A DNA stretch of 30,641 nucleotides from positions 1 to 30,641 of the IMG/VR virus record IMGVR_UViG_3300013286_000037. The stretch is one strand, 5' to 3'. Below the pieces are notes generated by a model. That model ran no database searches and was not told the DNA's origin. It was given only the letters and a program-made list of their open reading frames with translations. Below are positions 9,842-17,989 of the stretch, in pieces. Made by a program: the position numbers and the translations under genes. The stretch comes from a virus. Every line of letters starts with the position of its first letter. The stretch's first letter is position 1.

Positions 9842-9882
9842 ATTGTGTTACATTAAAATATACTTAATAAGTTTAAACTTAA

Positions 9883-9890
9883 CAAATTTA
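9883..9890 (-). promoter_or_regulatory. Candidate Bacteroidota -7 promoter box (TAAATTTG)
   Basis: Reads TAAATTTG on the minus strand, matching TAnnTTTG, the -7 element of the Bacteroidota primary sigma factor. It lies about 42 nt upstream of the 9841 start. No good TTTG -33 element is seen at the expected distance, so strength is uncertain. Confidence 0.4.
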
Positions 9891-9938
9891 ATTTTAAAAC
9901 ATAATATGGCTATTAGGAAGATATGCACACTATGTGTA

Positions 9939-10595
9939 TTATTTACCGTATTCTAATTCTAATATTTTACCTACTAAATCAGAACGGTGGTTTTCCTTAA
10001 GCTTAACCCATTTCACTTCTTCTAGTTTCTTAGACAGTTCTATAGCATAAGACAAGCCATTTACAGAACCATGGGGGTTAATATCCATTTGCTCATTATC
10101 ACCATTAATAATAATCTTACCTGTTTTACCTAGCCTAGTAAGAATAGCCAGCATCTCAGCCTTAGATAAGTTCTGTGCTTCCTCTACAATAAGAACATCA
10201 TCCACAGTCTTACCCCTAATAAACTGTACAGGATAAGCTAGAATTTTCTTCTCAGCCACAAGGTTCTCTATCTTCACCTTATCATAACACTTAATAAGGT
10301 TTTCCATAAAGGCTTCTAAATAAGGATTAAACTTGTCCTCTAAAGCCCCAGGTAAAAAACCCATAGAATTACCCACCTCTATAGTGGCCCTAGTAACAAA
10401 TACCTTGTCACATTCATCTTTAAACAAAAAGTCTAAAGCACACTGGGCAGATACTAAACTCTTACCACAACCTGCCCTACCTGTAATAATAACTATCTGG
10501 TTTTCCCTAATAAGACGCTTGGCTTCCTTCTGCTCATCATTAAGCTGAATGTTATATTTAATCTCATTCTTTCTAGTACGGTTAGACTCTTTCAT
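9939..10595 (-). CDS. PhoH-like P-loop ATPase
   Basis: 218 residues from the ATG at 10595; a longer reading with 35 extra residues is rejected because it runs through the preceding gene's end and has atypical composition. Walker A GRAGCGKS is at 39-46, Walker B with catalytic Glu in VLIVEEAQN at about 134-142, a sensor motif INGDNEQMD at 163-171, and an arginine-rich ENHRSD near 201-206. This is the PhoH core, related to SF1 helicases; phage PhoH proteins are common, with a proposed RNA or nucleotide-linked role. It is 4 nt from the 91-aa gene upstream. Its GC content looks higher than the neighbouring late genes. Confidence 0.9.
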   Translation of the reverse strand: MKESNRTRKNEIKYNIQLNDEQKEAKRLIRENQIVIITGRAGCGKSLVSAQCALDFLFKDECDKVFVTRATIEVGNSMGFLPGALEDKFNPYLEAFMENLIKCYDKVKIENLVAEKKILAYPVQFIRGKTVDDVLIVEEAQNLSKAEMLAILTRLGKTGKIIINGDNEQMDINPHGSVNGLSYAIELSKKLEEVKWVKLKENHRSDLVGKILELEYGK

Positions 10596-15874: not shown

Positions 15875-16504
15875 ATGAAACTTAAACATGTAAAGTTTAA
15901 TCATGAAGCTGAAGGTTTTTATGATGCCATCGGTATTACAGATGATATAATGATGAAATGCAGAGAACGTATTTTATTCAGTACATTTACTAATGCCTTA
16001 CAAAGTATAGAACTATTTGAAGACAGAAATGATGCTCCAAGAGAGTTAACAACTATCACTGGAGATTTTCAAAAAACTTTGTCTATTATAGAAGATGAAA
16101 TAGAATATGCTTACACTCTAATGGAATTTAGTAAAACTCATGAAATGGGCGTAGAAGCTTTTGCTAGATGGGAACTTCAAAGAAGAGCTAAAAATTCTAA
16201 AACGAATAAAAAGAAATCTATGATGCTTGACATTATGGATATGCTTACAGAACTTAAGATGGAGCATGAAAAAACTAGTAATGAAACTGCGGATATAAAC
16301 TTAAAATATGGTTTTACTCCTAAAGGTCTTCTTAAAAGAGTAGAGCTCACTAAGAATTCACAGTATGATTTTAATGTTTATCTTAATATGGTTGAGAGAT
16401 ATAATCATAGCAATCAGTATGATAGAAGTAAAGACTCTGATACTGATATTGATGATTTCTTAAGAAACATTCTTAATCAGAATGATGAAGATGATGATGA
16501 TTAA
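15875..16504 (+). CDS. Hypothetical helical protein with acidic tail (209 aa)
   Basis: A long helical core (about 15-140) with Lys/Arg-rich segment RRAKNSKTNKKKSMM near 109-123 and a strongly acidic C-terminus (DIDDFLRN...NDEDDDD, about 189-209). Acidic tails of this kind occur in ssDNA-binding and replication accessory proteins, and the next gene is a wHTH replication-type protein 12 nt downstream. No fold recognised. Confidence 0.65.
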   Translation: MKLKHVKFNHEAEGFYDAIGITDDIMMKCRERILFSTFTNALQSIELFEDRNDAPRELTTITGDFQKTLSIIEDEIEYAYTLMEFSKTHEMGVEAFARWELQRRAKNSKTNKKKSMMLDIMDMLTELKMEHEKTSNETADINLKYGFTPKGLLKRVELTKNSQYDFNVYLNMVERYNHSNQYDRSKDSDTDIDDFLRNILNQNDEDDDD

Positions 16505-16516
16505 TAAAAGACCATT

Positions 16517-16795
16517 ATGTCTAATAGATTAAAAGCTGGATTTGGACAACCTTCTAAGGTTGTCCTTACAGATCCACATATAGATTTAAAACTAAAAGGT
16601 CTATATGCCTATCTTTCAGCTTATGCTTCTAGTACAACTGATGAAACTTTTATTAGTGTTGATAGAATGGCTGCTGAAACAGGCACTGATAGATCAACAA
16701 TAAATCGGCTGTTAAAAGCTATGATAGAAAAAGGTATAATATCACGTGTAAGACGTGGTAAAAATACCACTGCAATAACAAAATTAATTAGATAA
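16517..16795 (+). CDS. Winged helix-turn-helix protein, replication-initiator type
   Basis: 92 residues. LKLKGLYAYLSAYASSTTDETFISVDRMAAETGTDRSTINRLLKAMIEKGIISRVRR is a clear wHTH with recognition helix at about 58-70 and wing at 75-90. It matches the HTH domain found in plasmid and phage replication initiators (HTH_36/DnaD-like N-termini), where the domain is usually followed by more sequence; here it stands alone. It could be a regulator. The gene-free RNA region begins about 15 nt after its stop. Confidence 0.75.
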   Translation: MSNRLKAGFGQPSKVVLTDPHIDLKLKGLYAYLSAYASSTTDETFISVDRMAAETGTDRSTINRLLKAMIEKGIISRVRRGKNTTAITKLIR

Positions 16796-16810: not shown

Positions 16811-17372
16811 TTAGGAGGGGATTATTCTTTTTTGGTGACAGGTGAAGAATAAGTGCTTTATGCTGTTCTCACATTAGGAAGTCCCCTGCTAGAACAAATC
16901 TTATTTAATGTTTGATATAAAGAGTTTTATAGCGTATTAAAGGTTCACATCGATTGGCAACTAAAACATAGAACTATATTCCTTTATGTAAATGTTAAAC
17001 AACAAGACTGATCTCAGGTGCCTATTAGTAATATTCTGTTGAAGGCAAACCGTTCCCTTACTCAGTAGTACGACATGATGATAGAGCTCCGTCAAACGAA
17101 GCGTAATCATACCTAGTAGCAGTTCTGATGATTATGAACGTAGTCCCTGGGATAGTTTCTTGTTAAACTTATTAGATTAAGCATCTGGAACACTTGAATA
17201 TTTAGGTTCGAGTGGAAAGAAGGATAAACAGCCAGCCTATTGATATTAAGAGCTATGCTCCCAACTCATGAACGTATTTCCAGTACTTCTGCTTAATCTA
17301 TAATTTATTACTATGTTAACGAAAAGATTATATAAACCTCGGCATGACCGGTAGTGGTGTATAAGGAGAGAT
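16811..17372 (+). ncRNA. Large ornate structured RNA, family unassigned
   Basis: About 560 nt with no ORF, immediately upstream of tmRNA. Exact helices: TTATTCTT/AAGAATAA (16822-16829, 16845-16852) inside AGGGGA/TCCCCT (16816-16821, 16882-16887); a pseudoknot TGTTCT/AGAACA (16864-16869, 16891-16896) crossing it; AACAAGA/TCTTGTT (17001-17007, 17158-17164) with CTCAG/CTGGG inside; an 11-bp TAGATTAAGCA/TGCTTAATCTA (17173-17183, 17290-17300) enclosing CTGGAA/TTCCAG and the 8-bp hairpin CACTTGAA/TTCGAGTG (17191-17214). Length, position in a phage next to a tRNA-type RNA, and complexity recall ROOL and GOLLD RNAs; I could not confirm either. Ends are approximate. Confidence 0.6.
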
Positions 17373-17384
17373 GTAGTAACTTTA

Positions 17385-17967
17385 GGGGGTGTATTGATTT
17401 GACAGCACTCTAAATGGTAGTATCACAAGCAAGCCTTGGAACGGGTAAACAAGTTCTAAACAATAACCGTAAAGAGTCAATCTGAGCGTGTTTCTGAAGG
17501 TGCCGCTATTATAGCAATGGCATTTTCTCGTGTAGCAGTAGCTGCATAAGGAAACGGGGTGGTAACAACCTGGCAACAGAAAGTTACAAAATCGTAAGGT
17601 ATTCTGATACTGACAGCTCAAAGGAGTGATGGGTGTGAAAGCAGAATAAATGACTACATCGTCCTAGCCTTACAAATGTTTTCTTAGTTATGTCAAAACT
17701 AAGTGGTGGCAAGTTGTACTTAACCGTATGATCCTAAAATTACTGATCAGTATATGTAAAGAAATGGCGTTTTGTAGATAAAACCGCTACCACGCTCCAA
17801 CAAGGCTAAAGTGAAGAACTCTATTCCTTAACGGTCCGGTCCATATACAGACTCAATTACGGTGCAAAGAGTGTTTGGGATCTTCCCAGCACTATTAGTA
17901 CTAAGCTTGTAACTAAATGGTATTATGATTTGTATGTTGGACGGGGGTTCGTAACCCCCCACCTCCA
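17385..17967 (+). ncRNA. ssrA: tmRNA (ssrA), unusually long
   Basis: Acceptor stem GGGGGTG (17385-17391) pairs with CACCTCC (17960-17966), one G-U. GATTTGACAGC follows as in tmRNA 5' domains. The T arm is GGGGG-TTCGTAA-CCCCC (17943-17959) after GGAC, and AAGCTTGTA near 17904-17912 matches the 3' domain motif. The coded 3' end is A-CTA, not CCA. A tag reading frame ends at TAA 17547-17549; from GCA at 17514 it gives AMAFSRVAVAA, whose end resembles ClpXP-type tags. Upstream GCC/GCT codons are alternative resume points. tmRNA rescues stalled ribosomes and tags products for proteolysis. At 583 nt it exceeds the usual 350-410, with the extra length after the tag. Confidence 0.85.
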
Positions 17968-17989
17968 CTAATTTTTTAAACTTAAAGTC

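Follow-up and report, generated by a model that had tools for sequence, protein, structure and literature searches.

The window, the whole 30,641-nt stretch analyzed here (a 30.6-kb IMG/VR virus contig), probably carries a functional phage tmRNA in the standard form, which would use the ordinary mechanism and add a phage-specific tag to stalled proteins; confidence in this reading is good. Sequence and covariation in related phages show a tRNA-like domain with a G3:U70 pair, a P2 connector, a tag frame of 26 codons closed by TAA and, in the ring, two inserted modules (pseudoknot A and extension C). The window terminase is closest to those of crAss-like and Flavobacterium phages (~25% identity), and the neighborhood of the tmRNA gene is common to related phages, which was counted in favor of a working tmRNA. 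The gene and its core elements are as follows.

17385–17967, + strand: tmRNA (ssrA) gene, standard one-piece form, 583 nt (RF00023 at 52.0 bits; covariation in relatives)
17385–17391, + strand: acceptor stem 5′ strand GGGGGTG, partner CACCTCC at 17960–17966, with G3:U70 (Rfam match, covariation)
17425–17430, + strand: inner P2 5′ strand ACAAGC, partner GCTTGT at 17905–17910 (compensated in relatives)
17438–17456, + strand: PK1 region, first stem GGAAC/GTTC (sequence conserved in L095/L097)
17469–17549, + strand: tag frame GTA to TAA, VKSQSERVSEGAAIIAMAFSRVAVAA and stop, 26 aa (ARAGORN calls in relatives; protein-level conservation)
17943–17959, + strand: T arm GGGGG TTCGTAA CCCCC, U58 in place of A58 (Rfam match, comparison with relatives)

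The Rfam tmRNA covariance model (RF00023) matches the + strand end to end (17385–17970, model positions 1–374) with 52.0 bits and an E-value of 6.6e-18, above the gathering score of 47 by only 5 bits, which bears out the original prediction of a tmRNA of unusual length, about 583 nt. The acceptor stem, the T arm and the 5′ GATTTGACAGC and 3′ ACTAAGCTTGTA motifs on which that prediction rested are present where it had placed them, and its boundaries are exact because the acceptor 5′ strand begins at 17385, its 3′ strand at 17960, and the discriminator A73 at 17967 forms the 3′ end (CCA is not encoded). The 583-nt RNA as a whole folds with better energy than its shuffles (z = -2.9). A permuted two-piece tmRNA (RF04321) was rejected, with 20.5 bits against the 47 of the gathering score and with the 5′ end encoded ahead of the 3′ end, as in the standard form. 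The other check that had been proposed, ARAGORN, went the opposite way, with no tmRNA called over the whole window; this is probably a length limit of the program, since its calls in related phage contigs stop at 431 nt and most of the longer tmRNAs, spanning 438–642 nt, are missed.

Relatives were gathered with a pattern for tmRNA 3′ ends, which returned 67 viral contigs, many with tags of 17–32 residues, and the tag family of the window was then collected by a narrower pattern plus a search with aligned tags. The exact 3′ sequence of the window tmRNA gave no match in viral contigs, and the flanking proteins (15875–16504 and 16517–16795), used as queries against viral contigs, found zero relatives. 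In 20 distinct phage sequences (the tag family plus neighbors such as L019, L070, L078, L079, L083 and L085), 100% of the cells of the acceptor stem, inner P2 and T stem are paired and 9 of the 18 pairs show compensatory, both-sided changes; none of 500 shuffles reached either value, and slid controls fail. All seven acceptor pairs form, and pair 3 is G-U in 20/20 sequences; G3:U70 is the alanine identity pair. The inner helix of the connector P2 is likewise intact in the window and compensated in relatives, the first stem of a putative PK1 lies upstream of the resume codon, and the T stem is perfect (5 bp) with the loop TTCGTAA where TTCRA is expected.

Two departures from this conservation touch the tRNA-like contacts: position 58 of the T loop is U in the window and A in 20 other phage tmRNAs, unique among the 21 compared, and the D-loop GG is reduced to one G, a change also seen in L087. 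Possibly, U58 and the weakened D loop reflect an assembly error or early decay. An ancestor that worked, with a window copy that has lost these contacts and gathers insertions, would explain both changes and the low Rfam score; however, all 18 tested pairs are intact, the tag frame is conserved, the inserted modules are conserved and show compensatory changes, unlike junk, the D-loop change is shared with L087, and the T loop is normal in L091 although that RNA carries even more inserts; together these points make an inactive copy unlikely. Counted against a working tmRNA are U58, the single D-loop G, the low Rfam margin, the fold energy of module C (below) and the lack of a phage smpB.

The frame ending at TAA 17547–17549 stays open further upstream than was first read, when the tag was given as AMAFSRVAVAA, which would put the resume codon at GCA 17514. 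In L095 and L097, whose pre-tag region is nearly letter-for-letter that of the window, ARAGORN calls the tags VKSQSERVAEGEAILASIFASEYALAA and VKSQSERVAEGEAILASIFATEYALAA from the same resume codon as GTA 17469 of the window, and for this reason the window tag is read as VKSQSERVSEGAAIIAMAFSRVAVAA (17469–17549). The short tag shares the frame and stop codon of the 26-aa tag, but it keeps only the last 11 of the 26 residues and omits residues 1–15, the best conserved, and ARAGORN selects GTA in L095/L097 and homologous codons in L014, L022 and L077, so that a tag restricted to AMAFSRVAVAA is scarcely credible. The tag body is conserved and the tail variable (YALAA, VAVAA, VAIAA and EAVAA in the family, with YALAA in the closest relatives), and lengths in the family run from 23 to 27 residues. 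Over tag codons 1–20 of 12 sequences pN/pS is 0.40, and codon differences number 413 at third, 197 at first and 192 at second positions, in pooled pairwise counts that count shared ancestry repeatedly; the substitution pattern indicates that the tags evolve under protein-level constraint. The family includes 16 other viral contigs (L014, L022, L077, L080, L081 and L087–L097), its members all being uncultured viral contigs. A pattern and tblastn search, of limited sensitivity given the short query, found it in none of 84,980 bacterial/archaeal genomes, and a search of 50,697 phage records found it in none, named phages among them; so far, it appears to occur only in related viruses. The earlier claim that the tag is not host-like was right. 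A helical motif shared by all long phage tags looked suggestive, and no claim is made for it. In L015 the ARAGORN tag starts ELSEYT..., while its frame and homologues indicate that translation resumes at a GAC codon further upstream, which yields the 27-aa tag DNNTVELSEYTIDSLLAELSGAELELA; L019, L070, L078, L079 and L085 belong to the same observation.

The window tmRNA is ~60% longer than a usual tmRNA, and the surplus consists of two inserted RNA modules that both lie 3′ of 17549, after the tag frame, as had been predicted.

17594–17673, + strand: module A, an H-type pseudoknot (17601–17606/17642–17647 and 17626–17631/17657–17662) inside a GTAAGG/CCTTAC helix; common to L089, absent at the L095/L097 site
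17683–17703, + strand: PK3-type hairpin CTTAGTT/AACTAAG followed by TGGTGG (same element in L095/L097/L070)
17736–17852, + strand: module C, the main ring extension, with hairpin GGCGT..TAG-ATAAAACCG-CTA..ACGCT at 17766–17796 (L091/L093 match, compensated pairs, model R2)

Against L095 (426 nt), module A is a clean insert directly after AACAGAAAG, and L095/L097 represent its empty site. It also occurs in L089, where the first stem is re-paired (ATTCTG/CAGAAT versus AACTTAG/CTAAGTT) and the adjoining bases are unchanged. Module C occupies the PK3–PK4 site, which holds short hairpins in other family members, and is found again in the L091/L093 tmRNA (nhmmer 2e-7); an RNAalifold consensus of four copies contains 15 pairs, of which 6 are compensated. 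By energy alone the region is no better than its shuffles (z = -0.11), and a stable fold on that ground was rejected, the structure being evident only from comparison with relatives. The module C pattern was not found in bacterial genomes. Lengths in the tag family range from 345 to 642 nt, the upper end in L091/L093, which carry modules C, D and B. A 24-nt repeat between 16961 and 17806 was discarded as a duplication since 25 of 300 shuffles reach it. A recurrent hairpin with the loop ATAAAACCG, a TAG/CTA closing segment and an outer stem that is re-paired is seen in the window (17766–17796), L091 (2871), L096 (2155) and L099 (~3734, reverse complement); it is present both in tmRNA rings and in the ncRNA-1 described below and is possibly a protein-binding element. 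The L079 ring has a duplicated TAxGGTGCAG element.

The surplus had been proposed to be an intron or an extra pseudoknot, and the second part stands for module A. An intron, or a segment otherwise removed by processing to leave a mature tmRNA of normal length, would match known intron-form tmRNA genes in size, which begin at 545 bp, and 500 bp was among the cutoffs used to exclude non-intron forms in the intron search of a 2025 database (PMC11915505). Known tmRNA introns, however, sit in the T loop, which is contiguous here; Rfam lists no group I/II intron family at E up to 5, and the surplus is split into two inserts that each have a closing helix of their own and recur in other phage tmRNAs. 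On these grounds an intron is highly improbable. Insertion into the ring should plausibly be tolerated, given that PK2–PK4 of E. coli tmRNA can be swapped for one another and are not required in vitro (PMC3985003).

As a working tmRNA, the RNA would be charged by the host alanyl-tRNA synthetase and carried to stalled ribosomes by host SmpB and EF-Tu. Neither the window nor the records of 19 relatives (many of them fragments) contain smpB, so the tmRNA would depend on host SmpB. Translation would resume at GTA 17469, the stalled chain would gain Ala plus VKSQSERVSEGAAIIAMAFSRVAVAA, and release would follow at TAA. A tail of small residues such as VAVAA or YALAA fits a ClpXP-type degradation signal, and the VAVAA tail would be consistent with degradation of that type. 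The N-terminal part of the tag, which is long and conserved, might have a phage-specific function, e.g., adaptor or protease choice or an unfolding handle, with a protease or adaptor contact as our favored guess; the ring modules might serve stability, folding or protein contact without perturbing the tRNA-like domain, with RNA stability or protein contact favored. A phage tRNA-like domain without smpB would also suit a decoy whose main effect is to titrate host SmpB or to block the host's own tmRNA, the tag being secondary; phage DS6A has a TLD-only RNA for which such a role was proposed (PMC4131195). But a 26-codon tag conserved as protein would be purposeless in a decoy, and this alternative is very unlikely.

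The 589 nt that separate the HTH gene (end at 16795) from the tmRNA are gene-free and elevated in G+C, and two further RNA elements were recognized in them.

16981–17171, + strand: ncRNA-1, conserved and undescribed, which hosts module C in L096 and L099 (covariance model)
17173–17300, + strand: module D, an adjoining RNA domain outside the tmRNA here and within the tmRNA ring of L091/L093 (nhmmer 2.5e-3; helices)

ncRNA-1 has a closing helix of the CTGATCTCAGG/CCTGAGAT kind (GTCTGATCTCAGG/CCTGAGATAGAC in relatives), a T-rich end and no Rfam match. A covariance model built on four copies recovers copies outside its training (L096 at 5.9e-16, L099 at 8.4e-12), and 7 of 28 related phage records contain ncRNA-1, which is independent of the tmRNA, with protein genes between the two in L089, L091 and L093. 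Module D is closed by TAGATTAAGC/GCTTAATCTA, and its alignment between the window and L091/L093 (two sequences) gives 13 pairs, 4 of them compensated. Module C lies in the tmRNA ring of the window and L091/L093 and inside ncRNA-1 in L096 and L099, and no tmRNA was detected in the L099 contig (IMGVR_UViG_3300032116_000277). Because modules C and D lie in different places in different phages, RNA modules appear mobile between tmRNA and ncRNA-1. This is the least secure part of the account, given the small number of placements: five for module C, two being near-identical, and two distinct for module D. A still broader proposal, which we put forward tentatively and consider rather doubtful, is that in the crAss-like group the tmRNA ring is a platform for modules swapped with ncRNA-1 and that, together with a phage-only bipartite tag (a ~19-residue body plus a swappable degradation tail), it retargets ribosome rescue during infection.

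Other observations concern the neighborhoods of related tmRNAs. In the L099 contig ncRNA-1 with its module C is followed by a tRNA-like acceptor/T-arm end at ~4400 (reverse complement). A near-identical stretch just 5′ of the tmRNA in L019 (~9873–9949) and L070 (~622–698) could fold like a degenerate tRNA (ATAGTCAAG/CTTGACTAT ends in L019); ARAGORN and Rfam both return no tRNA for it. Homology of the window upstream region to the L019/L070 upstream stretch was rejected, as local scores equal those of shuffles, and the L077 upstream stretch was dismissed as a long ncRNA, being mostly a protein gene.

Tags are usually ~10 residues long and tmRNAs ~350 nt. A phage-only family of 23–27-residue tags conserved as protein suggests that the tag does more for phages than mark proteins for degradation; the ring can accept whole RNA domains, as tmRNA lengths of up to 642 nt show. 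Since ARAGORN with default settings misses long tmRNAs, such genes are probably under-annotated. Modules common to a tmRNA and an adjoining new ncRNA would offer a rare look at how structured RNAs shuffle domains, and related RNAs with and without each module, as well as the same tag body with different tails, would provide ready-made natural controls. As a hypothesis, the earlier suggestion of redirected ribosome rescue or protein turnover during infection is kept: an oversized tmRNA of the phage's own could alter the handling of stalled ribosomes and their products.

Phage-encoded tmRNA has precedents, with 402 of 18,146 phage genomes in one survey carrying it (PMC9004378). The mycobacteriophages of the Bxz1 group, Bacillus phage G and the marine phage Melnitz encode ssrA, as the window does, and so do the crAss-like phages cr10_1, cr125_1 and cr114_1, Cellulophaga phage Calle_1 and Chryseobacterium phage MA9V-3, the window terminase being of the crAss-like/Flavobacterium-phage kind. 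The tmRNAs of the named phages checked, unlike that of the window, have other tags and lengths of 333–450 nt, and several are permuted according to ARAGORN. Intron-form tmRNA genes are similar in length, whereas the window gene has neither a T-loop interruption nor a group I signature. A 2005 survey gave a typical tmRNA length of 350 nt and a maximum of 425 (PMC1168896), and among the 97,179 tmRNAs of a database, tags of 10 aa are the most frequent (PMC11915505). With the bacterial one-piece tmRNA (RF00023) the window RNA shares the acceptor with G3:U70, the T arm, the GAC D-region, P2, a tag frame with a stop and a pseudoknot-rich ring, and it differs in its 583 nt (typically ~350), its 26-aa tag (commonly 10 aa) and its two inserted modules.
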